A stretch of DNA of 64,000 nucleotides from Scenedesmus sp. ARA3 (taxonomy: Eukaryota > Chlorophyta > Chlorophyceae > Sphaeropleales > Scenedesmaceae): the NCBI GenBank assembly GCA_004335835.1, contig RWJK01001396.1:110168-174167 (forward strand), given 5' to 3'. The notes under the pieces are model-generated. The model had not been told where the DNA came from. It ran no database searches and saw only the letters and a list, made by a program, of their open reading frames with translations. The position numbers and the translations under genes were made by a program. Positions 7,003 to 63,126 of the stretch are shown here, piece after piece. Positions within the stretch are counted from its first letter, which is position 1. Each line of letters begins with the position of its first letter.

Positions 7003-10000
7003 AAGGCTTCACAGCAGGCGACGGGCTGGCTGCGGCTGGGGTCAGCTTCGCACTTGGCTGGGCCGCCGCTACGCTGCTTGCTGCTGTTGCATTGTCTGCT
7101 GCTGTTGCATTGAGCGCACTGAGAGGTGCCTCAGCAGGGCCAACTGCTTCGCTTGTTGCTGTTGCTGCGCCTGCCACTGCTGCTTCGCCTGGCACTGCAG
7201 GTTCAACTGCATCAGCGCTGCTGATCACCCCTGCAGTTGCATTAGCAGGGGCTGTGCCACCCACAGCGGCAGGCGATGCCTCGGTGCCGGCACTGCCGGT
7301 TGCGTTTGCTGCCGCGGGCTCTGCTGCTGCTGCTCCTCCTGCAGCAGGTGGCTGTTCATCTGTGGAGGCTGGCGGCTCTAATGCAGCGTCAGTGGCATTG
7401 CCGGTGGCAGGCGCTGCAGCTGCAGCAGCACCGTCCGTCGGCATGCCGGTAGCAGCCTCTGTGCCATTAGCTGCTGTCGATGGCTCAGCCAAAGCCGGAT
7501 CTGCAGGCGTACTGCCTGCTGCTGGGTCCTCTGGCGCTGCAGTACCGTTCCCAGCTGCAGCAGAGCCCGGGACTTCACCTGCTGTTGAAGCAGCACCTTT
7601 TTCTGCAGCTCCTGTTGCATCTGTTGCATTTCCTGCAGGCGCATTGCTTGCATCGCCTGCAGGAGGCTGCTGCCCTATTGCTGTCGGCTCTGCTGCTGGC
7701 GACGCCGTGCCAGCTGCAGGGACAGGGCTGGGTTCCGGAACTGCTGGCTGCTCCTTCGGCAGCACTTTCGGCTTCTTTGCTGCTGCTGCTCCTGCCTCCT
7801 GGCACCAGCCTAACAGCTTTGTCTGTGCAACCGGGCCTTGGCCGGCTTCCAGGTCAGCGCCGCTGCCTGCGCCTGCGCCGACTGTTACGCGTGCTCCGGC
7901 TCCATCAGTGGAGTTTGCTGCTGTGCCGGCGCTGCCTTCTGTCATCATGTAAAAGGGCCGGTCCTGGAACTGAGCCGGCAGGCACCTGGATGGAAGAAAT
8001 GTAGGGGAGCGAGAGGCAGGTGTGTTGCAGGAAGGGTATGGGGGTTTGCAGCTAAGGCAGCTGGCATCCTACGGGTTGGAAACAGCAGTTGCTGCATCAG
8101 CTGCGGCAGTTGTTGTTGCTGCTGTGTGTGGCCTCAGCTTGTTGTGCACGGTAGCCGCTTGCAGCACTGCTGTGGGGTGAAAGCTGCGTTGAGGATGAGC
8201 ACGAAGCAAGTAGTAGTCGCCGCTGGCAGCGGCTGTCGCAGCTACTGTAGCAGCGCTGCTGCTCCACAGGCCTGTTTATGAACAGCACATGCAAGCACAT
8301 CTGCAAGCACAGCCACAACTGCTTGACGCAGCTGCTTGACAAAGAGTGATCAATAATCTTCAACAACCACGAATCCTAGCAGCACATGCTGCTCACCCCT
8401 CAAGCTGCGGGTTATTGAAGATGCCCAGCCAGCTTAGCTGGGGCATGGCACTCCATGAGGAGGCAGGGAAGGTGCCCATGAACATATTGCTTGACAGGTC
8501 GCTGCAAACACAACAGGAGAAACAGCGGAGATGTGCGTTGTTGGTTGGTGTTGTATACAGGCAGTTGTACATCTCTCAGGGCACAGGCAGGGAAGGTGCC
8601 CATGAACATGTCGCTGGACAGGTCGCTGCAGTGCAGCAGTAAAAACAGCAGACATGTGCATTGTTGGTTGGTTTGTTATTTGCAGGCAGTATCTCTTGCT
8701 GCATGCCCTGATGCAGCACGCCACGCCTCCTGCTTATGAAACAAGGCGCATGTAGCTTTCTCTGTCTACTGAACTACACATGTTTTCTCAGTCACTCACA
8801 TGCCAGTGAGGCTCTTCATCTGCGCCCAATTGGAGGGGATCTGCCCGAAAAAGTTGTTGTTGTTGAGGTACACCAGCTGCAGCTTCTCCAAGGCAGCATA
8901 CTCGTCAGGCAGCAGCCCTGAAAACATGTTGCCACCAAGGTACCTGCAGGCAGCCAGATGCAGCAGCAGCAGCAGCAGCGTCAAATAAGACAGCCCTTCT
9001 CAATGAACGCAGCCATGTGTTGGTGTTCTCAGTTCTGCAAAAACTACCTTGTTTTTGTCCCAAGCGCCTGCCAGCGCAAATGCAGTGGGCTACCATACAG
9101 CAGTCCGGTTTCAACACAGCTGATTGGTGCCAACAGCACAGTGTGCTGTCAGCACTGCTATCAGAAGCACTCACATGTACTCTAGGCTCTGCATCTTGCC
9201 GTATGACGTGGGCAGTGCCCCCAGCAGCCTGTTGTCACGCAGCCCCAGCACCTTCAGGTTGCTCAGGCCTGACCAGCTGGCTGGCAATGGCCCCACCTGC
9301 AGGCAAACACACAAAAGAAGGACACATTTCACTATGGCGGTGAGTTTGGCGGCAAGCTTTGGGGCAGTTATGCAGCCCCAGCACCTTACCAGCTGGAGGC
9401 AGCAGCACTACCCGCAGGCAGTGCAGTGCAACACAATGGAAATCACATGCATGTGCATGCACTGGGTCATCATACGCACACTGCAGTACCTCCGCAGCAA
9501 GCACTGCAAATGCAGCATAAGCCCACATGCCTGCGCCACAGCATCAGCAGCTAGCATTCCTTGCTTGCTTTGCAATCTTTGCAACGCTCACCAGCTGGTT
9601 TTGCTGCAGTGCGATGACCTTCAAGCTCTTCAATGCAGACCAGCCGCTCGGGAGCGTGCCCGCCAGATTCTTGCCAGGCAAGCTGATGTCAGTGACCAGC
9701 CCAGCTGCATTGCACTTAATGCCCAACCACTCGCTGCACATGTCTGTGGTGTCAGACCAGCTCTCCAGCGCTGCTGCACTGGGGCCTGCCAGGTCACTGC
9801 CTGTGGCCAGGAGCACTGTCACGTGCGGCACAGCACAGCACAGCAGCAGCAGCAGCACCACAGCAGCAGCGGCCCAGCACAGCAACAAAGCATACAGAAG
9901 GTCAGGTCACTGCCTGTGGCAAGGAGCACTGTAAGGTGTGGCACAGCACAGCAACAGAGCAAGCAGAAAAGGTTGGGCCAACAGGTGTGTGGCTAGGAGC

Positions 10001-11726
10001 ACTGTAGGGGTGCAACACAGCAGAGCGACAGAGAATGCAGGAGGCTGGCGAGAGCTGCGTGGCTAGGAATGTGCCGTGCTAGTAGCAGTGGGCGCAAGGC
10101 GTTGAGTTATGCGCATTCAAGCACACCTCAGATGCAACACGAGGAGAGAAGCTTTATCTGGCTGTACTGCTGACAGTAGGGTTTACTAGGTGAACAAATA
10201 CTTCCGGGTCATGAGCTTTTGTGTCATTTTGCGGTTGGTCTTACATTCCTTCTGTAGAGCCCTGGTGGCCTCTTGGGATGCTGTGAGCTCCGCAGCAGCA
10301 CTGCCGCCAGCCCCAGCCGCTGCTGCACTGCCCTGCACAGGCACTGCGCCACCTGGCTGCTCATCTGCAGGTCGCGTAGGCGGCGTGCCTGCATCGTCTG
10401 CTGTTATGTTGCTGCTGCTGCCGCCGCTGCTGCTGCCGCTGCCTGTTAGCTCTGGTGCAGGTACTGGAGATGCAGCTGCGCTGCTGGTGCTGTTGTCGCT
10501 GCTGTCAGCTGTCTCCTCAGGTGCTGTTTCTGGCCCAGTGGCGGCAGTTGCGTTTGCTGCCTCTGATGCTCCTGCTGGTGTTGAGTCTGGCTCAGGGCTA
10601 GCTTCTGCATCTAGAGCTGCTCCTTCTGGTTCAGGGCTAGCTGCTGCATCTGCAGCATCTGCTGCAGATGGCTCTGGGCTGTCTTCTGGACCGCCTGCTG
10701 CTGGAGCGGGTGACTCAGCAGCTGTGCTGCTCTCTGCTGGATCAGCAACAGCTTCTCCGCTTGTATCATTTGCAGCAGCTGCAGGAGCTGTTGCTGCTGC
10801 TGGGGCACTTGCTGGACCTGCAGCAGCTGCTGCTGCTGCGCCAGTCTCTGCTGCAGAAGTTTCGGTGGTGTTTGCACCAGCTGAGGTGCTGCTGGCTGGA
10901 GCATCAACAGCACTGTCAGTGATGTTGTCTGCGCCACCAGATGCCACACTATCAGTTGCAGTGTCTGCTGCTCCTACAGTATCTGCTGCCGGAGCAGCAT
11001 TGTCAGCAGAGATGTTTGCTACTGCAGTACCGCCTGGTGCAGTGACATTCCCTGCACCTGTGGCTGCTGCTGCAGCAGTGGCATTGCCGCTAGCTGCGGC
11101 TGGCACACCTGCTGCTACAGCTGCTGCTGTGGCTGGGCCTGCTGCTGCTGCAGTTGGTGTGGCTGTAGCATTGCCTGGTGCCTGCTGCAGCTGCCTGTTT
11201 GCGGCTGCATGCAGGGGACACAAAGGGAAGCCGGCAGGCAGCAGGATGCCGTTGACTACTCACAGAGTTTGTGGTCAGCTACAGCAATACAAGTTAGCTA
11301 CCGTGCATAGCCGGCAAGTGGAAACAGGTGTCACTGTCACTGCTGGCTGTCTGACCATTTGATGTTTTGGGAAAGGTCTGCGCCCAGCCATTCAATGGCT
11401 GGCTGCCAATGATTGGCATTCATACACTCGCGCATGCAGCAAAAGCTTGTGTGCAAGTACCCTGACGTGCGCTCCAGGCAGGCTTGCAAGTTGTCAACAT
11501 GAGAGTTGAAGTGGGCAGGTGGGCTGCACTCGGTGAGCAGGCACTTACCAGCAGCTGCTGTCACCAGTAGTCGTCTTGCAGGCCGTGCAAACGCTGCCGC
11601 CCCGGTCGCATATGCTCTATCATGAGTGCGTTGATGAGCTAAGCATAGCGGCGATGCCACGAGCAGCAGGGACAGCGCGATGCAAAACACTGGCCTAAGC
11701 GATGCAATGCAGCGAGTTGACTGCAT
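7001..11726 (-). CDS. Secreted leucine-rich-repeat glycoprotein with two sequon-rich arms
   Basis: Exons: 11726-11549, 11204-10245, 9800-9592, 9296-9175, 8943-8800, 8501-8397, 7985-7001; phases agree throughout and give 900 residues. A signal peptide at residues 1-31 has the core FCIALSLLLVASPLCLA. Residues about 60-370 are Ala/Pro/Ser/Thr/Glu-rich with around ten N-X-S/T sequons (GNATA, DNITD, ANTTE). An LRR N-cap follows (EATRALQKE joined to CSDLAGPS, then ALESWS and MCSEWLGIKC), then about six plant-type LRRs (LKVLGLRDNRLLGALP, LQLVYLNNNNFFGQIP). The last 300 residues form a second arm with about nine sequons and no membrane anchor. Joining the first two exons to the LRR exons uses a GTAAGA donor at 10244 and restores the N-cap; otherwise the LRR part has no ATG. 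Probably an extracellular matrix or cell-wall protein, resembling plant LRR-extensins in layout. Family is clear, role inferred. Confidence 0.75.
8073..8255 (-). other. Possible 183-nt in-frame cassette exon of LRR gene
   Basis: Between the exons 8501-8397 and 7985-7001 lies an open stretch with an acceptor AG just above 8255 and a GTAGGA donor just below 8073. It is 183 nt (61 codons), phase 2 at both ends, so inclusion or skipping both keep frame. Skipping gives NPQLEGCLPAQFQDR, which looks like a natural final LRR, so I treat the cassette as optional or intronic. Confidence 0.3.
8462..8709. repeat. 124-bp tandem duplication of an LRR exon junction
   Basis: 8462-8585 recurs at 8586-8709 with moderate divergence. 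Each copy carries the 5' end of the LRR exon (DLSSNMFMGTFPA in the intact copy, DLSSDMFMGTFPA in the other), its acceptor AG, and adjoining intron. Only the lower copy continues into a full LRR exon. Confidence 0.8.
9791..10018. repeat. 113-bp tandem duplication of LRR N-cap acceptor region
   Basis: The block starting AGGTCACTGCCTGTGGC at 9791 recurs at 9904, a 113-bp shift, with a third decayed partial copy near 9991. It duplicates the start of the N-cap exon (upper end 9800), its acceptor and the CTG-rich intron end. The extra copies contain stops and no complete exon. Confidence 0.75.
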
Positions 11727-13551
11727 CGATCCTTGAGCGATAACCGTCCTACTAACTTTTAATGATCCAAGTCACTGGTTGCTGATGGAGTGGATGGACT
11801 GTTTTGACGCGGAGGAAGCTATGGCAAACGTATCAACAAACAAGTCCAGTGGAGAGTGCGCAAAACAAGCTTTCATTCCACTGATACAATCGAGTGGTAG
11901 ATGAAACACTGAGAGGTGTGGGAAAAGTGATCAGAGTTCGGTGAACCTTCCTTGCATGTGGCGTGAGGAAAGTCAAATGGGAGGGCAGCAGCCGCGATGT
12001 ACAGGACGGCGCGTAAGAACACCACCACATGCAGTAGACAGGGACCAGATCCGCTGCGTTGGTAGGACTAGCTGTAACATCCGCTAGCTGCGTGAAGCTG
12101 CCACGCGAAGCTATTAGGCAGCGCCGGTGCCACCCTCAGATCTGCTTTCAGGCTAACAATTCAAGCCTAGAAACGAAAAAGTTTTATTCAATGAATGGCG
12201 GTCATACCTCGGGTGCATCTCGACCCGGTCGTGTGACTTAAATCACTCTTCTACAGGAACTACAGGGTGCACTGCAGCCAGTTACACGGCACAGAAACTC
12301 GACACAGCCTCACAGACCACGCTGCAGTTGCTGTTTTGATATATGATACATCCTGCGCTGCTCAAATGGCGTAAACACTAGCCTACTGCAGCCTACGATG
12401 GCAGTGAAGTGCGGTGTCAGAAGTCAAGTGCCTAAACTACCTTGTAATAATCAACTGAGTGTTGGGTGTCAAAGGCACTGTGCCATCCTGTCAAAACGCT
12501 GCCTCCAGGCGACATGTCAAACATCAAGTAACAACCAAACAGCCCGAGTATACTGTGCATGCCCTGCAAGAGCCATCCACACACGCGCAACACTGTGCCG
12601 AGAGCAACGGTGCTGTGCAGATGCATACGACCCAGCAGCATGCAACGCCCCCTACATGCAACTGCGAGTACTTCATGCATTTTACTGCAGATACATCTGC
12701 CACCTACTAGTACTGATGTGCCTGGTCATGCTAGTGGTCTATAACTTCAAACCAGTGTCAAAACCTCAGTGCTCTGCGCAGCTGCTCAACGTCCACCCGC
12801 GGTCAAAGCCGGTCAACATGCCAACCCTTGCAACCCCACAGCTATGCAGCAGCTGTTCAACCCACCCTCACACCTCAACAGTCATGTAACAGCTGTCCAT
12901 CTGACCCTTCCTTTTCCCTGCACAGGAAACAGACTTCAACGTCGCGTACGCCTTTGCAATTGACACAAAACATCCTCAGGACCACCTATGGTATCAGCCA
13001 CAGTATTGCTCCTCATGACAGCGCACCAGACAAACAGCAGACATGCATGTGCCATCTGATGCAGCCTCAACAGCTGTGCATTGCTGATAGCACCTGTGGT
13101 GCCAGTAGCTACTGCTATAGCATCGCTGTATGCTGTCACCTTTGCTTTACATGGCCAGTGTCACACACACACAGCAGCAGCAGCAGCAGCTGGTGCTGCT
13201 GAGGCTGCAGTGTCAACGCGCAGCCTAGCTGCTGCTCCCTGCAGCAGTTTACACCACGCGGGTCACCCTTGCAGGCCCTACAGCAAACATCACACAGCAA
13301 ACACACAGCGTTAGTACCTGTCTCGTGTTCGGTATGTGGTGGTTCTGCAGTTGTATTTTGTGCCTGGATGTTAGTTGATGGCAGCAACCACATGGCTTCA
13401 GCATGCAAGGCAGTGATTTCATCACCGGCGCGCAGCGTTGCACTCCTAGAGGAATGAAGCATTTGGCAAGCACACACACCCAACGGGCATTGTTCCTGTA
13501 ATGTGTGTGCATGGTGTCAGATGCTGCACGTGCTATCGCAAGGCACGTGCC
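11727..13551. other. Intergenic: 5' flank of LRR gene and 3' flank of ankyrin gene
   Basis: About 1.8 kb with no recognisable gene. Open frames on both strands are short and have ordinary composition. The part next to 11727 should hold the LRR-gene promoter; the part below 13552 the ankyrin-gene 3' UTR. Confidence 0.5.
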
Positions 13552-16500
13552 TCAGTGGTACAAAATACTATGTGTAGTACACTTGCCTGCAGCGGCGCCC
13601 TTGTGCTTGCGCTTGGATGAGGAGGCGGTGCCAGCAGCCGCTGTCTTTGCCTTCTTTGCAGCATTGGCAGCAGCCGCCGCACTGCTCTTGGCCGTCGGCT
13701 TGGCAGCCGGCACAGGGGAAGGCTTCACAGCAGCAGCAGAGGCTGGCAGTGCTGCCACGACTGCTCCAGGGGACTTGGGGGCTGCTGTAAAAGCCACATC
13801 AGCTGTGTGGTGGTCATCTGCCATGCCATCATCAGCAGAGGTGCTGACAGGGATAGCTGGCGTGGGAGTGCCGGCAGCAGCAGCAGCAGCGCTGATGTGC
13901 TTTGCCTGGTCTCCGGTGCTTGCGCGCATCTGCACGTCCTCGGTGGCATCTCCTGCAGGGCTGGGGGCCTGCAGTGCAGCGCAATGCAGGCACACATGCA
14001 CAATGAGCGGTTTGATGTTCAGCAGAAGGCCTGTTGACAGATGTGTGGTGGCGTCTCCAGCAAGGTGATGAGTCAGCAGCACAACAGCAACACGTACGCA
14101 TAATTGCAGCAATGAGCATGCTCTTGTTGACCAGCGCCCCCACAGCCACAAACCAAGAAAAGTACACACACTACACTCATGCTGGTTGCCTCTGGACTGC
14201 ATATCTTTGTCTTGGTGACATGTCACATGCATTGGTTCCAACGTAACAGAAGAACGAGATGCGTTTGGTGAGCATGTACAAGCAGGCCGTACCTTGCTGC
14301 TGGGTGTGAGGTTGGGTGCGTCCACGCCAATGCTTGCAGGGGCCCGCAGGAAGTACTCAAGCCTCACATCCTCCTCCTCCTCCACAGCAGCAACTGCAGG
14401 CATGGCAGTGCGGTAAGCAACACACATCAGCTGTTGCAGGAAATTGCATTGTCAAAGTCAGCAGCAGCAGCTTGCAGAAAGCGCTCCAGCCTCACATCCT
14501 CCTCCTCCTCGACAGCAGCAACTGCAGGCATGGCAGCACAGCAACGACAGGAGTGAGCTCAGAGGAGTGTAAACTGAGAGCAGGAAGCAGCAGCTGCAGC
14601 GTACTTGCGCCCTTGCAGGACGCTTACTTACACATCATTTCCTCCCTTTCTAGCAACAGGGGACCATGCGTTTACAGGCGGCGAGGCAAGTTCAAGAGCC
14701 AGCTCCGCACTCACTCTCTCCTGTCGCTGGGCTCAGGTTGCCGCCGTTGCCGTGCAGCGCGCTCCTGATCTGCTGCAGCAGCCGCGCATCGTCAGCGCTG
14801 TCCCTCTCGCGGCTCATGAAGCCTCCACCAGCACCCTCCGGCACTGGGCTGTTGCCGCCTGCATAAAATCACAATTTGTGCCAGGGCAGGCGCAGCAGCA
14901 GCAAAATGTATATTGGCGCTGCCCCTCTCGTGGCTCATGATGCCTCCATCAGCACCCTACGGCACAGGACTGTTGCCGCCTGCATGCATTTACAGTTTGT
15001 GCCAGCGCAGGTGCAGCAGCAGCATAATCAGTCAGGGCTGTACCTATCACGGCTCATGAAGCATTCACCAGCACCCTCTGGCACAGGGCTGTTGCCGCCT
15101 GCATGCAGTCACAGAGGGAAGCATTTTCCTGGGCAGGCAGATACACACTCTGCGCGGAGAGCGCCAGAGCACATCATTATTGCCGCTGCGCTGCAAGCTG
15201 CTCACTACCACTGCAGAAAGCAACTGTTCAGCAGCCACTGATTCCTCCAAAACTGGCGAGTGCACTCACCTGGGCTGGGGCCATCCTCTGGGGTGACGGG
15301 AGCAGCACCGGCAGGACAAGTGACACAGCTGTGCTGGCCCAGAACAGCTGCGGTAGCTGCCTCGATCCCTTGTCCAGCTTGCTATCTACACTGCCAACAA
15401 CGCGCCGCACGCTGCTCGCAAAGATCGCATTACACACAAGCAACTCATACCGCATACAGTCGGAACCCACCTGGGCTAGGGCCGCCCACTGGGGTGACGG
15501 GAGCAGCACCGCGCGGCTTCAATCCAACTGGAGACACCACCGGCTCCCTCGCCTGCCTCACCACAGGCCCCACACCTGCTGCTGCTGCTGCACTTGGCGC
15601 AGCAGCAGCAACAGCCTGCAGGTCGCAGCCGGAGCCGTCTTCTGCAGCTGCCTCTGCTGCTGCGCGGGCCACCACTGCCTTCACTGCCTCGCGCGCAAGG
15701 CTGGCAGCAGCAGCCTGCGCTGCGGCGCTCTCGCTGCTGACGGCGCTGCCTGCAGGACTCGCTGCACGTGAAGATGACTTGTGGCTGGCAGCAGCAGCAG
15801 TGGCAGAGCTGCCTGCTGCAGCAGCCAGGGACTCAGGGGTAGTCACGGCAGAGCTGCCAGGCTGCGCCGCTGCGCCCGCAACAGCAGCGGCGCGGCTGCG
15901 CAGGTGCGGCATGTGGGCCTTGATCCAGCCACCTGCTCCTCCTCCGCTGCTGCTGCTGGCCCTTTCAGCACGCTTGCTCGAGGTCGCAGCTGCCACAGGG
16001 TTGGATCCAATGCCTGCTGTGTTGGCGCCGGCGTCGCAGCTTGCTGTCGCAGCAGCGGCAGCAGCAGCGGCGTCAGCCGGGGGCTGTGGGGTGTAGGAGC
16101 TGACGTAGCGGCTGCTGGTAGGGTTGTTGCCCTGAGGCACACTGGCGGCACCATACCAGCGCACTGCCCTCAGCAGCTTGAAGAAGTCTGGGTCGTGTGC
16201 AAAGTTGAGGGGCAGCGCTCCGTGCTGTACATGTTGTTTGGGAAGCATCCGGGGTTGGGGTTTGTCATGAGGTACAGCAAGCAGGCAGGCACAGGTGGAG
16301 GTTAGGAAAGTGAGGTTGAAGCAGAGGTTGAGGTGGGTTATGAGTACAAATTGGTTGGTGCATTGGAGGCAAGCAACATGCGAGAGCTTCTTCTTCTCCT
16401 AGATGACTTTGAAAAGTACATCCATTCCTGTACTCACAGTACAGCAGCACTGACACGGCGCAAGTTATATGCTGCTGGCACCTGCAGCTGCTTCCCTGTG

Positions 16501-18410
16501 ACAACTACAACATGACTGCGCTGAGCAACCTACACCCGATTGGAAAATTGTTGAAAAAGGACAGGAACGCAGGCAGCAGGAGGTAGCTGCAGTGGAAGGT
16601 TCCCAAGTTGGTGCGCTGTGTGCGTTGCTGCTGCGCTCACCGTGTCTGCTGCATCAGTTGTGGCTCCCTTGTCCAGCAGCAGCTTTGCCAGCTGCGTGTG
16701 GTTGTTGTCCACCGCCAGGTGCAGCGGAGTGAAGCCGTGCTGCAGTACCAGGCACGCAAGCATCAAAGCAGGGGTAACAAGACAAGGCAGCATATCAGAA
16801 CTGTAGTACATTACACTAGTTGTACTGTTGTCCACTGCCAGGTGCAGCGGGGTGAAGCCGTGCTGCAAGACAGACACATACCATGATTGCAGCAGGGGCA
16901 ACCATGTAAGGCAGCAGGGGCAGCAGCAGCAGCAGGACGACAGTAGCTGAAGGATGCTGCAGGATCGTGGTACAATCGAATAGCAATAACTCAGTGGCAG
17001 CAAACATCAGCTTTGGTACCAAGCCCGGCAACCGAACATGATTTCATGTTCGTCTACCATTGCAGTTGCAACTCTGCTGGTGACCCCACCTTGTGCTTGC
17101 CCAGCAGGTCTGCCCCAGAGCCAACCGTCATGCAAACCATACCGCAACACAACAGATATACAGGCAGGGTATAAGTTGAACTGCACACGGATTCCTTACT
17201 CTGCCTTCGGACATACCTTGTCCTTAGCCAGCGGGTTGCCCCACCAGCCAACCACCATACAACTCATACCAAGGCATGATGGATATACAGGCAGAATAGC
17301 ATTTGTAATGTACAATGTTGTAGCTCTGCTGGTGACCCTACCTTGTCCTTAGCCAGCAGGTCTGCCCCGCCAGCCACCAGCGCTGCTGCAGCAGCCACGT
17401 GACCCTTCTCGCAGGCCAGGTGCAGAGGGGTGCGGCCCATCTGCAGCAGACAGCAGCGCGAGCAACAACAGCAACACGCACATGTCAGGTACATTGACAG
17501 CAAACAACCTGACAACCCGCCAGGCATGGTATGCAGTTAAAGGTATACAGGTGCGGCCTGCGTTCCTTCAACTGTGCAGGATGCCAACGCCAGATATGGC
17601 AGGTCCCTCTGTACGGAAGCTGACTACAACAGCAGCAAACCATTGTGAACATCCGCCACAGACGCAAACTGGCATCTAGCAACTGCAGCTGTACCACTGA
17701 TGTGAAATAAATGCCTACTGAGGTGCAGGAGTTACCTGTGAGCGCGCGTCCACCCACGCGCCCGCCTCCAGCAGCACAGCCACCACTGCTGCGCTGCCGC
17801 TCATCGCAGCCAGGTGCAGCGCGCGGTACTTGCTCTTCTGCAGGGCACGCAGCGCAACACAGGCAGCAGCAATGAAATCATGCCGCCAGTCAAACCATGG
17901 TCAGACAATGTGGGTGAGCCCGTGAGGATGTGTTTGACTTCATGCTGCATCCACGGATTTTGACTTCGCGACCGTTGCTGCCCTGCCATGACTGGCAATC
18001 CTCTGCCACGTGTTCGACATGCAAGGGTGGTTCTTTGCACTGCCCCTGGCTGCGGTCAGGCCAGTGCAGCAGCAGCAGTCGAGCACTCACCGCGCAGGCC
18101 AGGTCGTGCGGCACGCGTGCCATCATCTCCGCCACCACCTCAGCGTGGCCTCCCATCAACAGCATGATGAAGGGCAAAGAGCACAAAACGCGTCGCTGAT
18201 GTGCATGTGGAATGTCAGACCACGTCAACAAGCCCTTTTCGAGCTTCACGTCAAGTAGCCGTAACCAGTCACAAAACACTTGCTATCACAATGTGCCTAG
18301 CACTCACCGCGCAGGCCAGGTCATGCGGCACGCCGCGTGCCATCATCTCCGCCACCACCTCAGCGTGGCCTCCCCAGGCAGCCTCATGCAGCGCGCTGCT
18401 GGCAGCCTGA

Positions 18411-18441
<31 letters not shown>

Positions 18442-20947: not shown

Positions 20948-21485
20948 TGCTGCAACTAACGACGAATGGCGCCTGCTGTCCTGCAAGCAGCCAATGCAGC
21001 TATTGTTGTGGTGCTCTGGAAGTTGATGCTACCGTGTACATGGACAGATCACTTACTGTCGCTATGCTGTAACAGGTGCGGATCACGATCCTTTCTCCTT
21101 TGAGCGGAGCGCCTTTATCTGACACGACTGCGAAGGGTTGCGCGCGTCACTGAACCGTTGAGCCCTGGTCAAACGACTGCGAAACCACCATGAACACCTG
21201 CCAGAAATGCAAACAGTAATTTTAATATCGCCTTTAAGCCTGAATCTTGGTTTTACGGCAGCTTGCTTGCACGTTGACCTGACACTGTCACGTCAAGCAC
21301 AGGATCACTCGGCTTCCGTTGCGCACGACACTTGTCAAACGGCTGCTAATATGTTTCGGTCGACGAATGGAAAGGAAAACCCCACGATCAGCGCAGCTGT
21401 CTAGCAGGCAGAGGTACTGCTGTACGATTGCTCAGCGTGCGTGCGATTGCTGAGCTTAATACAGCATTAATTTGAAATTACCGCG
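20948..21485. promoter_or_regulatory. Divergent promoter region between ankyrin gene and ORC2
   Basis: 538 bp separates the ATG of the minus-strand ankyrin gene from the ATG of plus-strand ORC2, and every gene to the left is minus and to the right plus. It must hold both transcription starts. I see no clear TATA box or named factor site. Confidence 0.55.
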
Positions 21486-23895: not shown

Positions 23896-24518
23896 GGGGC
23901 AGCTGCTTGCAGGAACAGCAGGGCAGCGTGGGACAAGTGTGTGCGGGGCAGGCGGCCATGAGTGTGCGTACGCTGTGCGCATGTTTTCTTTAGCGGCTTG
24001 CGCAGCAGGCTCTTTGTGGACAGGCATGGCAGCGTGGTACTAGAACGGTGGGTGACCAATCTCTGCAGCGCATGCAGCACAATGTCCGTGCTTGCAATGC
24101 GCAGCTGCTGGCATATCTTTCTCGGGTCCAGTTCAAGTTTTCAAAGCCATCTGCTGCATACGCATATCTGCAACAGCGGATTGTGTCATACAGCTTGTGT
24201 TTGGCTAGCCACGCACAGCATATGCTGCCCCTGCACAGCATATGGTGCACCCTGGCTGCTGCTGTGCACAGCAGCATGCTGCACATGTGGGCACGTCAAT
24301 GGGCCCTAAACACTTTCCCCAACTGACATCATCATATAAATCCGCAACAAAGCTGAGCTTAGCTTATTCAAGACGTCGAGGTAAAACAATCTGCTTGTAT
24401 TGCTTAGCATTCGTTGTACAGGACTGCACAGTTTCAAAGTTGTGTTGAATTGCGTACACTTACAAGGGGACACGCGCTCCATATCCGCAGCAAAAACTAT
24501 CATACTGTGACAACAAAG
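23896..24518. other. Intergenic between ORC2 and flagellar-type gene
   Basis: 623 bp with ORC2 3' UTR and the promoter of the following gene. No gene, structured RNA or repeat array is recognised. Confidence 0.5.
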
Positions 24519-27160
24519 ATGCCGCTAGCCGTGGACAATGTGCCTTTCAGCGAGATGGGCCCATTGGCGCGAAGCAGCACTAGTCACCAGGGCCCCAGGA
24601 CGGTAAGGGACACGCTTGTTCCCATTTCAAGCTAAGGCTACTGTTTGCTGTTCTGTTTTAGTTGTCGGACATCGCCGCATGGTTCTCAGCAATTGAACTA
24701 GCCTGACATTCACACACAGGCTGGCAACAAGAGTCTGCTGACGTTCAGGAGTGATGTGGGCATTCCAGGATACACTGGCAAGCAAACCTACCCGGAATCC
24801 CCTCCATAGAGGTTGCTCAACTGCTGCAACCAGCTGTGCTCAGCAGTTGAAACGTAAGACAGCATCAGCTGTAGCAGGCAGCTGTGCCTTCACCACATGC
24901 ATCACCAGCACATCTTGGGTTGGAATTAAAATCACTGTCCGCAAATTGTCACTGTTGCAGGGTACACGCCGGGCTGGTGCACCGTGCCCATCCCCATCAA
25001 TGGCAGCACGCAGCACACTGGCAAGCTGCCAGATGACGGCCAAATGCTGGATGCGACAGTCAAAGCAGACTTGCGCAGCACAGCATCAGAGTACCGCAGC
25101 ACATACCAGGCAGACCCCAGCAACTACCACCCGCCTGGCCGCACCGGTGGGGGCTTCTGGTTCGAGGAGCGCCAGCGCAAGGCAGCAGGTGCGCCACTGA
25201 TGCGGCAGCTGCTCAAGTTGGTGTTAACATTGGTGTGAACAGCACACAGCTGCATGCGCTTGTTGGCCTGGCAGCTGTACATACAGGCTTCAATAGCATA
25301 GGGCCCTGCCAAGGATTGGCTTCAGTCATTCAAGCAGCTGCATGTGCCAGGAAACTGCACGTGATGGCCTGAACCCTCCAGGCCCTGACTCTGAATGTTT
25401 CCTGCAAGCTGCAGGCAACAGCCCGCCATTCCTGAGCAGCACCACCTACAAGTCGGAGCTGCTGGATGGCCAAGCCACAGCACAGCAGCAGCTCCAGCAG
25501 TCGCAGGGCCTGAACTCCAACCTAGTGACGTACAAGGTCGCCAGGGACCGTAGGGTACAGTCTGCAAGCCCATGCATGCGTAAGCATGCGCTGAGCAGCA
25601 CCACAGCATGCACCAGCAAGGGCGAGCTCATTGGCTACAAGACCACCTATGCAACCACCACAGCCCTGGCAGCAGAAAAGGCAGCCGGCGCAAAGGCTGC
25701 AGCAGCTGCACGGCCCATGTCCTGCACGGGCACAGAGCGGCTGCGCTTGGCGGTGAGTGGGGAGCAGCTGCGGCTACAAGAAATCAACCACATCTGTGCA
25801 TTTACAGAGCAACACGGCCATCAAAACACAAGCCGCGAATTAACAACACCCAGTTGGGTGGGGTGGAAGGCTGATGAACAATGCATGTAACGGCACTATT
25901 GCCCTGTGTTTGAACGTGTTCGGTGTCTGTTTGACCGTGCAGGTGATGCCGAACGCTGGCAAGCCACTTTTTGATGCCAGCAGCACCTACAGCAGGGACT
26001 TTGGCAGCCAGGGCAGCGACCCCATGCTGCGCGCAACAGCAGAGCCAACGCAGCAGACGCTGGCAGCCAGCACAAGGTATGGCATGGACATGGCGACAGC
26101 CTGCTGCCTATGTGAGGTGTCGCATGCACCAATTTGCTGCATTGGGTTATCAGCAAGCTCAGCATGCGCTGCTGGACCCCCTCATCTGCTGCTGCTGCTG
26201 CTGCTGCTGATCCGCTGCTGATGTTGACAATGATGTGGCTGCTCTGTTGCATGTCTGGCAGGGACCTGAATGATGGCACCACACGCTCATGCCGCCACCT
26301 TCCAGGCTACACGGGGTTCATCCCAGCAGCAGCAGTCAACGAGGCGGCTGTGCAGCAGGCTGCAGGCACCAGCACGAGGGCAGATGCCAAGGTGGGCAGG
26401 CTGAAGCATTTTGTGTGAGCGGGGAAGCGGTTGGGGCACACAAGCAGCAAGCAAGCAAACATTGGACACTGACCGCTAGTTGCCAATTGGTGTTGCAACA
26501 TCTACGGCTAGGGCAGCTGACGCAGCAGAGTCAATATGTTCATCTGCATCCCTGACGCCACGATCAATAATCTACACAGATTAGACGCTACCATGGAGTT
26601 TTAGCATACAACATGCAACCCACTGCTGTTCTGGCCTGGCTGCAGGCTGGCATGCTGCCTGCCACCCTGGACCAGTACAGCCGCTCGCGCCTAGCGCACT
26701 ACACAGGCTACAAGCCGCACGCGGGCGCTGGCGCGACAGCCGTGCAGCCGGCGCACGGCCCCACTGCGGAGACCACGCAGGGCTTTGCCAACCTGCAGGT
26801 GCTCAAGTATGGCCCGCAGCCAGCCCACTCTCGCCACGCCATCAACAGCCGCAAGGTGCGGGCGCTTTGACACATTGTAGCGGGGTTGCGGCAAGTTGCT
26901 GGGTGACACACAAAACAATCCAAGAGCAAACACGCCAGGTACAAATGGCTGTATTCATGGCAGGTTGCTGAACAACGGTTGCTGCTGCTGTCTGCCTGCA
27001 GGGCCTGATGACCTTCTTCACTGGCGGCATGGAGAGCGTGAGCGACAACGGCGAGGCAGACGCGCAGAAGTTCTTTGCCAAGCTGCGGCCGCTGGAGGGG
27101 CGCATGAAGACAGAGGCTGCCAGCACAACCAACCCCAGCGGCGCCAAGTTCACCCGCTGA
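24519..27160 (+). CDS. Candidate ciliary/flagellar-associated protein with repeated GYTG motifs
   Basis: Exons: 24519-24602, 24720-24777, 24961-25188, 25415-25752, 25943-26076, 26262-26391, 26646-26855, 27002-27160; 446 residues in frame. No enzyme domain. Short motifs IPGYTGYTPGW, LPGYTGFIP and HYTGYKPH recur, like the PGYTG(F/H)(I/V)P motif of microtubule-inner and flagellar-associated proteins of the CIMIP2/FAM166 (DUF2475) type. Short Tyr-containing segments (SSTTYKSELL, SSTYSRDFG, ASEYRSTYQ) are spaced as in proteins that thread along microtubules. The intron after exon 2 must use a GC donor (24778-24779), because no GT in that exon gives the phase needed by exon 3. A TGTAA lies 239 bases past the stop. 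Gene model is solid; the ciliary assignment rests on short motifs. Confidence 0.7.
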
Positions 27161-27398
27161 TCATCAGTGGCAGTTGCAGCTATCCTGCTTACTGTGCCAG
27201 TGCCTGTGGCTGGCCTGTACATTACCCTAGCAAATGTCAACCACTGTGCCTGTTGCAGCAAACTGACGGCTGATATGGCTGGTATCGGCTTTTGTTTTGA
27301 ATGATTTTGTGTTTGGCGGACAGCTGTCACTGCAGTGGACGCTGTCCAAAGTTCCGTCTGTTTTTACACAGCCACAGCTCGCTTGAGCGCCAGCACAA

Positions 27399-27403
27399 TG
27401 TAA
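27399..27403 (+). terminator. Candidate TGTAA poly(A) signal
   Basis: TGTAA, 239 bases after the stop codon of the flagellar-type gene and before the next gene, in an AT-richer patch. It matches the green-algal polyadenylation signal. Confidence 0.5.
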
Positions 27404-27834
27404 TATTTAACATTCTGCAATGAACTCAAATGCCGTGTAGCTGCTCTGGCTCTTCCTTGTTTAGGAGATCTCTGGTTTCGGAGCTGAGGGGCCCCTCAGC
27501 GACTGTGGCTTGACAGCCCTAGCACCCTCAGCGCGCGACTTTCCCGAGTATGTACTTTTCAGGTGAACAGTAAGTGTACCTGGCATTACAGTTTCGGTGC
27601 GTAAACCGATGATTGCCAGTGGTTGACACATGATTAACAGTGGCTGCTGGCCCCACATCATTCCCCCCCAACCCACGCTCATCGTCCTTGTTGTGACAAC
27701 AACACATCAAACGACATGTCCTGCTCACCCACACTTTCTTCAGAGCACAACACATATCACCGCTGCTGTTCATGCAGCTCTTTCGGCACTGAAGACAGCG
27801 GCCCGCCACACCAACGACATAGACACTTCTTCAA
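27404..27834. other. Intergenic upstream of IFRD gene
   Basis: 431 bp, presumably promoter and 5' UTR of the IFRD gene. Nothing else is recognised. Confidence 0.4.
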
Positions 27835-30800
27835 ATGGCAAAAAGTGAGCGCAGCAAGCTGCAACTATTAAGCTCTCACGGCAGGCTTACACGCCTGACG
27901 CTGCTCCTCCGCAAGCGGGCAATTGCACACAGTCAAGAGGCACGGCTCAACGCGCTTTGTTCGCTTTCGTGCCTGCAGAGAAAGGAAAGAAGGGGCAGGA
28001 CGATTTTGACGATGCCCACAGCATCTGCAGCACTGGCACATACACCAGCATGGGCAACGGGCAGGAGGAGCTGATAGACAGCCAGGCTGAGGCTTTCAGC
28101 CTTGCCATAGATGACACGTACGAGAGCAGGTGAGCCAGGCAGCAGCTGCGCAGCAGCCAGTGCGTGTGGGCCTCACCAGCGCGCGTTGTTAACAGCCAGC
28201 TGGGGCCAGCAGAGGGAACCATGCCTTAGCACCCCCACATCGGTTCAGCATTCAACACGTCTACTAAGCAATGCTGCTATCTGCTTAGCTTTGATCACAG
28301 CTTTGGCATGTGTGCTGGCATGAAGCTTTCTGTTGTGGTGGCTATTTCTGATCAGCATGCTTGTGCACCTGCAGGGCCACCACCAGGGAAAAGGCTTGGG
28401 AGCGCATCACAGCAATGCTGCGCAACCAAGTCAGGCAGGACGACTGCTTCCAGAAGTGAGCGGCGCAGCAGCTGTTCTTTGACGACATGTCACATGGCAC
28501 CGCTGCTGTGAGATATGCAGTGTTGATGTGGCCAGCTGGTTAGTCCGCCAACCCACCTTGTCGCACTCAGCAGCTGTGTAAATACTTAAAGCATTGCAGC
28601 AGCAACTCACATGGCACTGAGCTGGGCTTTCAGCTGAGGCTGCGTGCTGAAGTCCTTATGTTGCGACCTGCCAAGGCAGTGTGTTGTTCGCCCGAACTAG
28701 GGTTGTTATTCAGGGGTTGTGATTCTGTCTTCATTGTTGGACTGCAGTGCCTCCACGCTGACAGGCAGGTGCCTGAGCGCAATCAAGAAGGGCGGTGCTG
28801 CAGAGGCAGCATCAGCAGCAACAGCACTGGGTGAGCAGGCACGGCAGGCAACATGCAGGCAGCAGCAGCAGCAGTGGGCCAGGCAGCAACTGCTCCGCTC
28901 AGGAGCAGCTGGTGTGCTGCAGTGCAAGTTGCGCAACACGCATGCGTCGGCGCTGACAGTCTGTGTTGCATGCCTGGCAGCTGGTTGAAGTCAGCAGCAG
29001 CGTCTGTCGCCTGCTACGGCGCAGGCTGGTCGCTGCTGCGCCCTATGTCACCAGGTGTCTGTCGTGGCGTAGCCGCATGAGCTCACCGTTGTAACCGCTC
29101 TGCACATCGGTGGTTGCTGCTGAAGCATCTGCCGCCTGCTGCTTGCTCTGCAGGGCTGCACATGCTGACACTGGGGGAGCCTGATGAGAAGTGAGTATCA
29201 GTACTTGCAAAGTGTTTTGTCAGGTGCAGCCAGCGCTGTCTTGCCCCGCGCAGCAGGATGCAGCAGCAACAGCGATGCAGGCGTCGCAGCTAGTTTGTGC
29301 GGCAATCACAAGCAAGCAGCTGCAAGGCCTTGTCTGTGGCCATGAGCAGCCCATTTTTACCCTGCCTAGCACAGCAGCAGCCGCAGCTCTGTACCGGCCT
29401 TGTGGTACCATTGCTCTAACAACGCTGCATGCCCTGCTGCCGCATGTCCTGCGGCTGCTGCTGTTATTGCGCTGCAGCCTGTTCCAGGAGGTGCATACTG
29501 ACCTGGCCAAGGCTGCGAAGCAGGGCAAGGGCGCCGCCGTCAAAGTGGCAGCAGCTGAGGCGCTGGCGCTGTGCTGCTTCGTGGCTGCTGAGGATGAGCA
29601 CACCACGCTGGAGGTGATGGAGCAGCTGCACGCTCTATGGGGCAAAGGTGGGCGCAGCAGGCCAGAGGGTTTGGCACAGGGGTTATGGTTGCATTTGACT
29701 GCAGTTTGCTGCGAGGACGAGCTCACCACGCTGGAGGTGCTGGAGCAACTGCATGGCCTGTGGGGCAAAGGTGGGCTGGCGGTGGTTGGGTTTGGTGTAG
29801 GATGACTGCAGTTTGCGCTTGAAGCTGAGCTGGCAGCGCTGGCTGCATTGTGCTGTGTATGCTACCGCAGACCGCGCCAAGCTGCATGGCGGGCTCGACA
29901 TTCATCTACCCTGATGTTGACTCGTACCCCTGCCTTGCCGCTGCTGTGTCTCTTGTGCTTTGCCGACCTGCAGACAGTGCCAAGCTGCGCGCCACGGCGC
30001 TACGCGGCTGGTCCCTGCTGTACAGCTCCCTGTCTAGCCCTCTGGCCACGCGGCAGTTAGAAGCTGAGCTGGCAGCACTTGCGGCTTTGCTGCATGATGC
30101 TGACGTGGACGTGCGCGCGGCCGCCGGCGAGGGTTTAGGCCTGCTGTACAGCAGCTGCGGTTTAGGGGACAGCGACTTTGGGGAGGAGGAAGATCTGGAT
30201 GATTCAATAGAGGAAGAGGAGGAGGAGGAGGAAGAGCAGCAGCAGGAAGAGCAGCAGCAGGTTGAGCAGCAGGAGTTGGCGCCGGCAGGCGAGCAGCAGC
30301 AGCAGGTAGAGCTGGCGCAGAATGGTGTAGCTGGCGGCAGCAGCAGCCAGGCGCAGCAGGTGGTGCTGAATGGCATTCCTGAAGGCCTGGTCGTGCCTGG
30401 CACCACTACTAATCCAGGCAGCGGCGCGCGCCAGCGCATTGTGCAGCAGCAGCAGCAGCAGCGTGAGGGTGACGTGATGAGCTTAGGTAGCAGCGTGTCG
30501 GGGCTTGACATGGTGATAGACAGGGTGCGGGACCTGGCCAACAACAGGGGCGACCGACAGCGGCGCAGCAGGCGGGAGCGGCAGAGCATGCGCAGCAGCT
30601 TCCGGGAGCTACGCAGCGTGATGGAGGTGAGGCACTCTTATGTTTTGTGATGTATTTTTGTGATGTATGTTTTGTGGTTTACAGCAAACGCCGTGCATCA
30701 ACGGCAGATTTACGGCACTTGCATCGCGCTCATTGCAAGCAGAGGTGTGCCTACAACGCAGTTTTTTGTACGATATCGTCAGTTTGGAAGCAGTTATGGA

Positions 30801-31497
30801 TGTGTGCAGCAGCTTGAGGCGCCTTGACAAGCAGCTGCAACAGCATGCACCATATCGGCACCGTAGTTTCAACAACTATACATCTGCTGCTGCTGCTGCT
30901 GCTGCTGCCGCTGCTGCTGCTGCTGCTGCTCCTGCTGCTGCTGCTGCAGGACGGCCGCGTGCGTGAGCAGAAGATCAAGCTGCGCCACGGCGACACGCTC
31001 ATCATCAACACACTGGAGGGCAACGTCATGATGAACTTCCTCAAGCGCTTCATCGCGGGCGGCTTCCAGGTGCGGGTGGCTGCAGGGAGCTGTTGCATAA
31101 CACATTCATAACATGTGACATGTCATTCTACAGAGACTGTGGAGGTTGCTTGCTTGGCTGTCGACAGCTGCACTGGGCTGACAGGGCAAGAGTGCGGCCT
31201 ACATTGTGTGTGCCTGTGCTGGGACGTGTTGCTGCCGCTGACCCTCTTTCCTGCTGGGTGCTTGTTGGTGACCTTGCGTGTGCTGCATGTGTCTGTCTGC
31301 TGCAGGTGCACCTGCAGGAGAACCCCTTCCTGCACAACCTGTTTGACTTCAGCCCGCTGGAGGGCCGCCCCGACAAGCTGTCCCAGCAGGAGAAGCGCGC
31401 CTTCCGCAGCCCCTGCAGCGCCGCCAGCAAGGCGCGCAGCCAGGCGCGGCGCAGCCAGCGCAGCTACAAGGGAGGCTCCTCAGGCGCTGATTGGTAG
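27835..31497 (+). CDS. Interferon-related developmental regulator (IFRD) family protein
   Basis: IFRD proteins are conserved armadillo-like eukaryotic regulators linked to transcription and ribosome handling; no enzyme activity is known. Exons: 27835-27844, 27979-28129, 28375-28455, 28748-28830, 29154-29190, 29478-29647, 29974-30626, 30950-31069, 31306-31497; 498 residues in frame. The start lies in a 10-nt coding exon, giving MAKKKGKKGQDDFDD. N-terminal IFRD features: DDTYESRATTREKAWERI, TLTGRCLSAIKKG and KVAAAEALALCCFVAAED. An acidic Glu/Gln-rich linker (DDSIEEEEEEEEE) precedes the IFRD C-terminal domain: REQKIKLRHGDTLIINT, MMNFLKRFIAGGFQVHLQEN and LHNLFDFSPLE. The C-tail is basic (SQARRSQRSYKGG). 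Exon 6 and the 3' end have tandem partial copies downstream. Family assignment is confident; cellular role in algae unknown. Confidence 0.88.
29598..29790. repeat. 123-bp duplicate of IFRD exon 6 donor end
   Basis: Exon 6 ends TTLEVMEQLHALWGK with donor after 29647; a copy, TTLEVLEQLHGLWGK, with donor after 29770 lies in the following intron. The copy has no acceptor of its own. A second fragment at 29820, matching exon 7 sequence at 30060 (240 bp away), follows. Confidence 0.8.
30884..30948. repeat. CTG repeat abutting IFRD exon 8 acceptor
   Basis: About twenty CTG triplets with two interruptions run directly into the acceptor AG at 30948-30949 before GACGGCCGC. Confidence 0.85.
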
Positions 31498-31730
31498 CTG
31501 CAGAGGTTTGTGCAGATGTTTGCGGCTGCTGCTGCTGCAGTAGCTGTGCCGCCAGCAAGGCGCGCAGCCAGGCGCGGCGCAGCCAGCACAGCTTCAAGGG
31601 AGGCTCAGGCGCTGACTGGTAGCTGCAGACTTGAGAGAAGGTCTGTGGCTGCTGCTGCTGCAGCCCCTGCAGTGCCGCCAGCAAGGCGCGGCGCAGCCAG
31701 CGCAGCTACAAGGGAGGGTGGTTAGCTGCG
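31420..31730. repeat. Threefold tandem repeat of IFRD coding end and stop
   Basis: The block beginning GCCGCCAGCAAGGCG starts at 31420 (coding), 31548 and 31674 (both after the stop), periods 128 and 126 bp. The first two copies carry the same TGGTAGCTGCAG stop context, so the 3' UTR contains a decayed copy of the protein's basic tail plus another partial one. Confidence 0.85.
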
Positions 31731-33434
31731 GAGTGGTAGCTGGGATGATGTGCACTGTTGTTGCGGCAGCAGCGCTGAAGACTCCTGAATTGCAGGCGGC
31801 AGGCGCACGCGCGGCTCGGCGGGGCGGACTAGTAGCCGCATTGCTTGCTGCTGCTGTGGCGCTGGACATGCCTGCACATGCAGGGCGTGCGCCGCCATCT
31901 GCCAAGCTAGCTGCACAGGCCGAGCTATTGCTGATAGGAGCATGTCGGGAGCTGCTGCTTGGCTGGGCTGGTGTGAATGGGGTGTTAGGCATTGCAATGC
32001 CTCAACAATTGTTGAGATTGTTGTGGGGGCATGGGTCTGTTGCGGGGCCGTGTATGAACGAGGGATACAACTTGGCTTGGGGAGGAGGGAATGTGGGGCA
32101 GCGGGGGTTGCAGGGCCGGGCGCTTGAAGAGTGTGCAGGACACTGGCGTATCTGTGTTTGCTTATGTGTAGTATATACCCCTGCTGTGTAGTTTGGGGGT
32201 TTCAAACACAGTGTGTGTGGCTGAGGGTGGCGCCCTGTGGTGCGCTGCTATGACGCGTTCATCTGCGTGTAGTTACGACAGAGTGCGTGCAGCGCCTGTC
32301 TTTTCATGTGAATTGGCTAGGCAGTGCTGCCTGACATGCTTACGACAGCTTGTACAGACTGTGTAGAGAAAGGGTTTGTCACAGGTTTGTCACTTTTGCT
32401 GTATGTAGATGACGTGTGTGTGCTGCGTTTGCATGATTGACCGAGCTTGCAGGCAGCATGTGGTGCTTGCAGCGACTCCTTTTCCTCTTGTGCTCTCCCT
32501 GAGGTAGTACATGAGAATCCGTGTCAACAGCTAAACAATGTTGTCGAGCAGTGCCACTGTTGCCAAGATTTTTTTGGTGTGGTGCTGTGCCTGCTGGGCT
32601 GTCGCTGAAAAATCATGGTTGCTGTCTGGCAGGGTGCACGCAGCAGCGTACGGGTGCGCTGCGGAAGCAGAGCATGCCTTGGGCCTGACTGATGAGCTTG
32701 TGCAGCCATGGTGAACGTGTCAAATTGCACGTAAGGTCACACAGTGCATGGAAGCAGCAGTGCAGTTGCGCGGTCGTAGACATGTTGCCTACGCAGCTTT
32801 GCTTGTGCCAAGATGATGCTGCAGTCAGTGAGTGTGCAGTGGGATTATGCGTGGCAACAGCTGCCCATAAGGTGTTGGGACATTGGTGATGTTGTTTTTA
32901 CAGCTGTGGTCTGGTCTGTACCATGTGCCAGACCTGAGCGGTGTTGTGTCAAGCAAGCGCACTTGCCCGTGTAACTGCATTGCTTCTGTAACTGCGTCCC
33001 GGCAGTCTAGGGTTCAGCGGTGCTGTATGTTGTCTGTGCAACGTCAAGCAGTGATGAAGAAGCTCCAGGCGTTGACACAAGTATTCTTTGTCGTGTTGTT
33101 CTTCCCGCTGTTAGCGAAACATGGTGCAGTCAAGTGATGGAGCAAGTGCTCTGTCGGGCTAGTATCTTGGCCAGAACGGCACAGCTGGACGCAGCTGCAT
33201 AGTCTATGTGATAACAGCTGAAACTCAACACACCCACAGGTGCTCAATTGAAGTATGCCGCGCACTGCTACCGCAGCAGTGTGATTCGGTTCAGCCAGCT
33301 CAACGGCCCTTCGTCAACATAGCCGGCCAATTGCTCGCTGCGTTCAGCACCATTTGCAGGATATCGAGTGCTAAGCAGACCCGAATTAGCTCGCTGTGAA
33401 GGCCGCTGTAACAGCAGCAGCAGCAGCAGCAGCA
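31731..33434. other. Intergenic between IFRD gene and MYND array
   Basis: 1.7 kb downstream of the 3' repeat block. Open frames are short and unremarkable. It holds the distal IFRD 3' flank and the promoter of the first MYND gene; a CAG run (33413-33434) directly precedes that gene's ATG. Confidence 0.45.

Positions 33435-50820: not shown

Positions 50821-50851
<31 letters not shown>

Positions 50852-52078: not shown

Positions 52079-52109
<31 letters not shown>

Positions 52110-55702: not shown

Positions 55703-55749
<47 letters not shown>

Positions 55750-60614: not shown

Positions 60615-60653
<39 letters not shown>

Positions 60654-61287: not shown

Positions 61288-61318
<31 letters not shown>

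Positions 61319-63085: not shown

Positions 63086-63126
<41 letters not shown>

Follow-up and report, generated by a model that had tools for sequence, protein, structure and literature searches.

INTRODUCTION

Internal gene duplication is reportedly ubiquitous and may alter introns, as Gao and Lynch are said to have found in 2009, and small tandem duplications have reportedly been ascribed to the fill-in of staggered breaks by Vaughn and Bennetzen (2014) and by Schiml (2016). The potato RdRp gene shows that a new intron can arise from a tandem duplication that spans an intron-exon boundary (PMC4974935; reviewed in PMC3443670), and in mouse and human cells tandem duplications form when staggered breaks are repaired (PMC8355091, PMC5730883). 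Introners are mobile families that change intron content across a genome (PMC9860276), and a survey of plants and green algae, restricted to units of 1-50 bp, found tandem repeats to be enriched close to intron-exon junctions in Chlamydomonas and Volvox (PMC3887541). Here, a stretch of 64,000 nucleotides from the green alga Scenedesmus sp. ARA3 (contig RWJK01001396.1, positions 110,168 to 174,167; hereafter, the window), in which local direct repeats with offsets near 120 bp carry splice junctions and parts of the adjoining exons, was analysed together with 27 other stretches of 10 kb, 322 kb in total.

As in intron gain by tandem duplication, the copies cross a boundary and join 3′ intron sequence to the 5′ part of the exon that follows. 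Unlike the potato case, a single event that gave a new intron, they are frequent, fall into a size class, involve both donors and acceptors and in most cases seem to lengthen the existing intron. They resemble staggered-break fill-in duplications in being local and direct, and in those systems length reflects the overhang; however, the published cases were produced experimentally in cell lines, from overhangs tens of bases long, and the accessible parts of those reports describe neither a natural class of ~120 bp nor a link to splice sites. Intron content is altered genome-wide, as it is by introners, but the copies examined here are of local sequence, and the ~120-bp class lies outside the unit range surveyed in Chlamydomonas and Volvox. 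A term search of the main text of the S. obliquus AS-6-11 genome paper (PMC7590803) returned no mention of introns or tandem repeats, and no junction-crossing duplication class of ~120 bp in algae was found in literature searched by titles and the beginnings of abstracts, a body that leaves most subscription journals uncovered.

The repeats are real and widespread in the parts examined. Their best explanation, to which a probability of about 0.5 is assigned, is tandem duplication of ~120 bp during break repair, later hidden by splicing, together with short local re-copying.

RESULTS AND DISCUSSION

Density, size class and orientation of the repeats

Of the 27 additional stretches, 2 lie directly upstream of the window, 6 come from low-numbered contigs and 19 are spread over the contig numbers; all except the first two are contig starts, and ~12 kb of them read N (4.6 kb in L020, 1-10000, and 7.0 kb in L021, 1-10000). 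In the window, repeats were sought by ungapped and gapped self-comparison; in the scan of window and stretches together, simple CAG-type repeats were masked and clusters had to reach at least 40 bits. The 322 kb yielded 76 direct-repeat clusters and one shuffled copy yielded 0, which excludes chance. Six clusters were set aside, namely four in L019 with its BRCA2-like gene, a CAG-rich pair at 46712, and the 352-bp ankyrin pair 19112/19461, which was rejected as a recent copy since it consists of two homologous exons (paralogues). The remaining 70 amount to ~1 cluster per 4.6 kb of sampled sequence, at least one being present in 19 of the 28 sources (window and stretches).

An assembly artefact is barely credible as the source of these repeats. 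The assembly of this 87.3-Mb genome does comprise many contigs (1567) and the structures are tandem, but nearly all copies differ by 3-30%, in coding and intron parts, which collapse or stutter would not give.

The best offset was 100-139 bp in 30 of the 70 clusters, the mode of the distribution. Outside the interval covered by the original prediction (8462..31740), 23 of 60 clusters fell at 100-139 bp, 13 at 60-99, 12 at 140-199, 8 at 200-299 and 4 above. Simulated duplications were detected at rates of 0.73-1.0 for units of at least 75 bp, indicating that the fall above 140 bp is real; detection was 0.11-0.28 at 30-60 bp, with a background of 0.21, and the offset scan says little below 75 bp, where smaller sizes were covered by Tandem Repeats Finder. 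Beyond periods of at most 60 bp, that program found arrays only at 101-148 and 225-267 bp. With L019 excluded, 10 arrays lay at 101-148 bp (mean 122, standard deviation 13) and one at 232 bp, with none at 61-100 or 149-224 bp; under log-uniform sizes from 61 to 224 bp, ten of ten arrays in the 101-148 band have p ~5e-6, with bounds picked post hoc. Direct pairs outnumbered inverted pairs at 30-400 bp by 143 to 5 (arrays being counted several times), and offset had no clear dependence on block length (rho 0.17 overall, 0.11 below 190 bp).

The original prediction had described a narrow class of 113-128 bp in unrelated genes and had proposed a self-alignment with shuffled controls. That comparison, run on the 322 kb, gave the offset peak at 100-139 bp and no repeats in the shuffle, and the size class does recur across unrelated genes; it is, however, broader than proposed, full arrays ranging from 101 to 148 bp.

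As a separate observation, L019 (G000:C752:1-10000) contains a predicted gene with several tandem BRCA2-type repeats (PF00634, E 7e-9 on a segment) and long glutamine runs, apparently a BRCA2-like protein of the alga.

Local origin of the copies

Searches of the 87-Mb genome, in which only the best candidates were scored, found no other place for the LRR gene repeat at 8461..8690, the ankyrin gene array at 14774..15114 or the IFRD gene repeat at 29584..29776, so that three of four repeat-bearing window pieces match only themselves; in the fourth, only the spacer (plus 4 nt of block) has a relative, at one place and 75% identity. This bears out the earlier view that the copies are of local sequence and that introner-like insertion does not fit. 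When 15 arrays and 10 window repeats were compared, all matches between them were short and CTG-rich, the longest being 50 nt at 76%, and the repeats are therefore not one satellite family. The 24 spacer-spacer matches at E <= 0.01 among 36 spacers were all of CAG/GCN type, with a single exception 18 nt long. This sample thus did not show the recurrence of similar introns across unrelated loci that marks introners, its units and spacers sharing only CTG/CAG-rich matches.

It is very unlikely that the spacers are small mobile elements and the blocks long target-site duplications, although three sequences lend that reading some substance. Two of the 36 spacers have a non-CAG-type relative elsewhere: spacer 18155-18298 at one genome place on C1113 (L029, G000:C1113:31999-32117; 75% over 118 nt), and part of the L017 7323 spacer (L017:7366-7615), 60 nt of which recur at 82% in L008 (9730-9789). 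In addition, >30 other genome places carry the initial 31-54 nt of the L021 8400-8780 query, with 93-100% identity over the first 31 nt. However, the remaining matches are CAG-rich, local or in dropped pairs (36 spacers of the sample, only some of them searched genome-wide); spacer 15312-15463, searched alone against the genome, matches only itself; the C1113 similarity begins ~40 nt inside the spacer, on the first-copy side, and not at the block edge; and full tandem arrays have no spacer.

Two of these sequences deserve a remark of their own. The intronic stretch of ~120 nt shared by 18155-18298 and C1113, whose C1113 member carries an inverted repeat of 16-17 nt, is perhaps a short mobile element of some age. 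For the 18155-18298 spacer, a structured RNA was considered and rejected: there was no Rfam match at the gathering score in window 8000-32500 or L029, and the spacer shows no folding advantage over shuffled sequence (z -0.8). The better folding of the C1113 relative (z -2.4) is probably due to the inverted repeat that it carries. L021:8400-8453 adjoins the left edge of the pair 8426-8508 / 8673-8755; by eye it is not a simple repeat, and a dispersed element may end there, beside the duplication.

Full tandem units and sharp blocks

Full tandem pairs keep 73-93% identity along the unit, with an indel/substitution ratio of 0.23 (15 hand-picked alignments). For quantitative comparison, a set of 44 two-copy events with offsets of 60-400 bp was used, from which arrays and other offsets were excluded and which still includes the ankyrin paralogue pair 19112 and the CAG-rich pair 46712. 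Eighteen of the 44 are sharp events, with blocks of 24-83 bp, offsets of 63-293 bp and unrelated spacers; these are near-tandem and not tandem, direct tandem copying being evident in the full-unit class. Longer blocks go with shorter spacers (rho -0.41; -0.59 at offsets <190 bp, partly from that cut), and the relations among offset, block and spacer fit an original unit of ~120 bp of which only a part would have been re-copied. At 17065-17376, where three copies are present, a sharp tract of 52 nt is 88% identical between the outer two and is matched less well by the middle one, as re-copying between non-adjacent copies would predict.

Tandem duplication followed by deletion was considered for the sharp events and is unsupported. 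Their spacers resemble their own flanks more than flanks of other events, with 6 of 18 exceeding the 95% level, but other sequence taken from the same stretch matches those flanks just as well (means 20.7 and 20.7). In 21 sharp events, flanking similarity exceeded that of permuted pairs (p 0.001 and 0.006); with four removed whose flanks are alignable (shortened by masking), the 17 left were marginal on the left side (p 0.05) and showed nothing on the right (p 0.41).

Relation to splice junctions

Splice sites were predicted by a small hidden-Markov gene finder trained on the sample, which reproduces most exons read by eye and gave AG/GTGAG (donor) and CTGCAG/G (acceptor) as consensus, with a median exon of ~150 bp and a median intron of ~297 bp. 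A predicted junction lay inside the block in 28 of the 44 events, compared with 10.2 +/- 2.6 for random blocks of the same size. This comparison asks too little, since a surviving block is shorter than the unit that was duplicated. In a second null, random units of ~118 bp were placed in real sequence, exon-only units were dropped (607 of 3000 drawn), the copies from 1500 of the remaining units were decayed and detection was run as before; this simulation, which rests on home-made gene models, assumed rates and uniform ages, showed a junction in 342 of 988 detected events (35%).

The original prediction had suggested a single mutational process acting at exon edges. Such a process, for instance breaks or polymerase jumps tied to transcription or splicing, appears possible but unlikely. 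The observed junction count exceeds both nulls, and a predicted junction lies within the block in 11 of the 18 sharp events; in 10 of them the block extends only 6-17 nt into the intron. On the other hand, full arrays show a weaker excess (10 of 15 with a junction, against 6.3 +/- 1.8 expected, in a set that includes four L019 arrays), and 16 of the 44 events have no predicted junction in the block. Survival and detection also favour blocks with one conserved exonic copy, and the excess could come from retention and detection. What the predicted junctions bear out is a bias towards exon edges among the surviving duplications; they do not establish that mutation is directed at those edges.

It is highly improbable that the pairs are births of new introns by tandem duplication (the AGGT model). 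The corresponding signature, an intron end that copies the neighbouring exon, occurs in 5 of 368 predicted introns, ~1.4 being expected by chance. Candidates for such births are L020:5572-5700 and L022:5020-5126, short predicted introns whose ends copy the neighbouring exon. Against this reading, two of the five lie within known window repeats (15287-15470 and 31571-31663, the second probably a false intron), and most pairs lie inside longer introns and do not set both intron ends; among the 368 predicted introns, copies that supply the splice sites of a new intron with a length equal to the offset are no commoner than this count allows.

Fate of the spare copies

The 25 pairs with one exonic copy carry 42 synonymous and 52 non-synonymous changes, a ratio of the non-synonymous to the synonymous proportion (pN/pS) of 0.49, with 4 stop codons in the spare copies. 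In better supported exons (16 pairs, including the ankyrin paralogue pair), the ratio was 0.46. Since ~0.5 is expected with one copy constrained and the other drifting, the spare copies look neutral on average. Selection on spare copies was therefore rejected as a general cause of the sharp blocks (pooled pN/pS ~0.5), though individual pairs look constrained.

A function of the spare copies as alternative exons or splice sites under selection is accordingly doubtful and distinctly less plausible than edge-aimed mutation. It draws on several pairs that differ only at synonymous sites (16703, 18299, L005 4337 and L018 6589), on an intact GT or AG in most copies, and on a single frame open across both IFRD copies and, by eye, at 16703; these few synonymous-only pairs leave room for the use of some spare copies. 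Against general use stand the pooled pN/pS of 0.49-0.52, the stop codons, offsets that are not generally multiples of three, and the proteins of relatives, of which 7 of 132 listed were compared, the IFRD set (P0001-P0005) being drawn from 12 matches. With its exons joined, the IFRD gene matches a protein of Tetradesmus obliquus at 98% identity and one of Scenedesmus sp. NREL 46B-D3 at 86%, so that the alga is probably T. obliquus or closely related to it. All five IFRD relatives that cover the site run from exon to exon, skipping the copy at 29708-29776. At the coding end, which is present in three copies (31406..31780), the annotated T. obliquus IFRD protein terminates at the first, and the one ankyrin relative, P0013 (Scenedesmus), follows the first copy at 18082..18374. 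The compared proteins are probably mostly gene predictions; the name of P0004 resembles that of a transcriptome entry.

Proposed origin

In the preferred explanation, break repair followed by splicing and re-copying, the genome would acquire direct duplications of nearby sequence, about 100-140 bp long and observed mostly in genes. Their likeliest source would be the repair of breaks with long staggered ends, the overhang being filled in and joined to leave a tandem copy. Given short exons and dense introns, a unit of ~120 bp would often span one splice junction; splicing would then keep one of the two sites, the spare exon edge would remain unused in the intron and drift, and copies wholly within exons would mostly be lost. 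A second process, gene conversion or template switching between nearby places, may re-copy tracts of 24-83 bp, often exon edges, leaving sharp blocks parted by unrelated spacer.

In favour of this explanation stand the offset mode and the array periods with empty ranges on either side, the direct orientation, the sharing of no more than short CTG-rich matches among arrays, a pN/pS near 0.5, the identity that full pairs keep along the unit, the lack of a clear link between offset and block length, the omission of spare copies from IFRD and ankyrin proteins of relatives, and the tandem duplications that staggered-break repair makes in mammalian cells. Several results weigh against it. Nothing explains the unit size of ~120 bp, and a single genome does not separate insertion from conversion directly. 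Staggered-break fill-in agrees with the direct orientation and with the existence of full units, but not with the unrelated spacers of 18 of the 44 events, and the second process was added because of these sharp events. The median ratio of block to offset is 0.44 over all 44 events versus 0.96 in the decay simulation, and 0.33 versus 0.99 for pairs of at least 88% identity; tandem duplication with neutral drift as the cause of all events was rejected on this simulation, which leaves the sharp blocks unexplained. The junction share of 64%, compared with 35% simulated (binomial p = 8e-5), also indicates that tandem duplication and drift alone are insufficient. Finally, nine pairs predicted to be exonic on both sides give a pN/pS of 0.56, making the ratio a blunt tool for telling spare from used copies.

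A bolder account, rated slightly below edge-aimed mutation in general and likewise unlikely, is that a repair or replication process with a fixed reach of ~120 bp, acting during transcription or splicing, repeatedly copies exon edges into the adjacent intron. Introns of this lineage would then grow, change and occasionally arise by quantal local copying and not by mobile elements.

Repeats in the window

The window repeats are collected in Table 1. Pfam assigned LRR_8, Ank, IFRD with IFRD_C, and zf-MYND to the window genes, MYND from a segment of one gene only. Self-comparison recovered every offset quoted in the original prediction, namely 124 and 113 in the LRR gene; 128, 121, 119, 123, 125-127, 201 and 217-220 in the ankyrin gene; 123, 128/126 and 239 in the IFRD gene; and 89-103 and 161 in MYND genes. 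The weakest are the IFRD pair 29821/30060 (36.7 bits, under the 40-bit limit) and the pair 63758/63919. The claim that the copied block contains a junction was also upheld, in that most listed pairs keep a donor or acceptor in both copies (alignments and predicted sites); clear losses of the splice site in one copy were read by eye at 37882, L017 5161 and L027 2052.

Table 1. Repeats identified in the window, with window coordinates.
Feature	Position	Strand	Offset (bp) or basis
LRR gene, acceptor and 41 nt of exon	8461-8565, intronic copy 8585-8690 (8461..8690)	-	124
LRR gene, acceptor region	9790-9852 / 9903-9966 (9790..9966)	-	113
Ankyrin gene, acceptor-like motif and exon-like sequence	14346-14408 / 14474-14536	-	128; 92%, 90 bits
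Ankyrin gene, ~2.7 tandem units of ~121 bp	14774..15114	-	self-comparison, Tandem Repeats Finder
Ankyrin gene, donor and exon end	15465-15511 (long exon), 15264-15310 (intron)	-	201
Ankyrin gene, acceptor and ~40 nt of exon	16703-16792, intronic copy 16826-16916	-	123
Ankyrin gene, donor region, three copies ~127 apart	17065..17376	-	self-comparison
Ankyrin gene, exon end and donor	18299-18374, sharp intronic copy 18082-18154	-	217-220
IFRD gene, exon end and donor	29584-29653, intronic copy 29708-29776	+	123
IFRD gene, 30 nt of following exon	30060-30089, intronic copy from 29821	+	239, weak
IFRD gene, coding end and following sequence, three copies	31406..31780	+	114-128
Tandem duplication of ~80 bp, predicted intronic, no junction	34837..35021	+	self-comparison
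MYND gene, donor region	35907..36100	+	89-103
Weak 38-nt pair, no predicted junction, may be chance	63758..63956	+	161; 42 bits

The LRR pair 8461/8585 aligns at 83% over 107 columns, its exon being predicted at 8397-8501. The ankyrin pair 14346/14474 was masked from the cluster scan by a GAG run; the acceptor-like ctgcag is visible by eye in both copies, and the gene finder splits the ankyrin gene at this pair. In the array at 14774..15114, each unit consists of a pyrimidine-rich stretch, an AG and an exon start. The exon part of the pair 16703/16826 differs by two synonymous changes, and the copies of the pair 18299/18082 are separated by an unrelated spacer of 144 nt (18155-18298).

Elsewhere in the window, positions 49000-64000 hold similar-looking predicted genes with glutamine and alanine runs, one of them with a MYND finger, which are possibly tandem paralogues.

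CONCLUSIONS

Junction-crossing tandem duplications have been known from single, hard-won cases of intron gain, whereas sampled sequence of this alga holds about one local cluster per 4.6 kb. Since the copies are of graded age, a comparison of strains could measure the rate, place and size of the duplications and their fate as introns or exons. This genome thus offers a ready test bed for intron change, and its ~120-bp class calls for a physical explanation.

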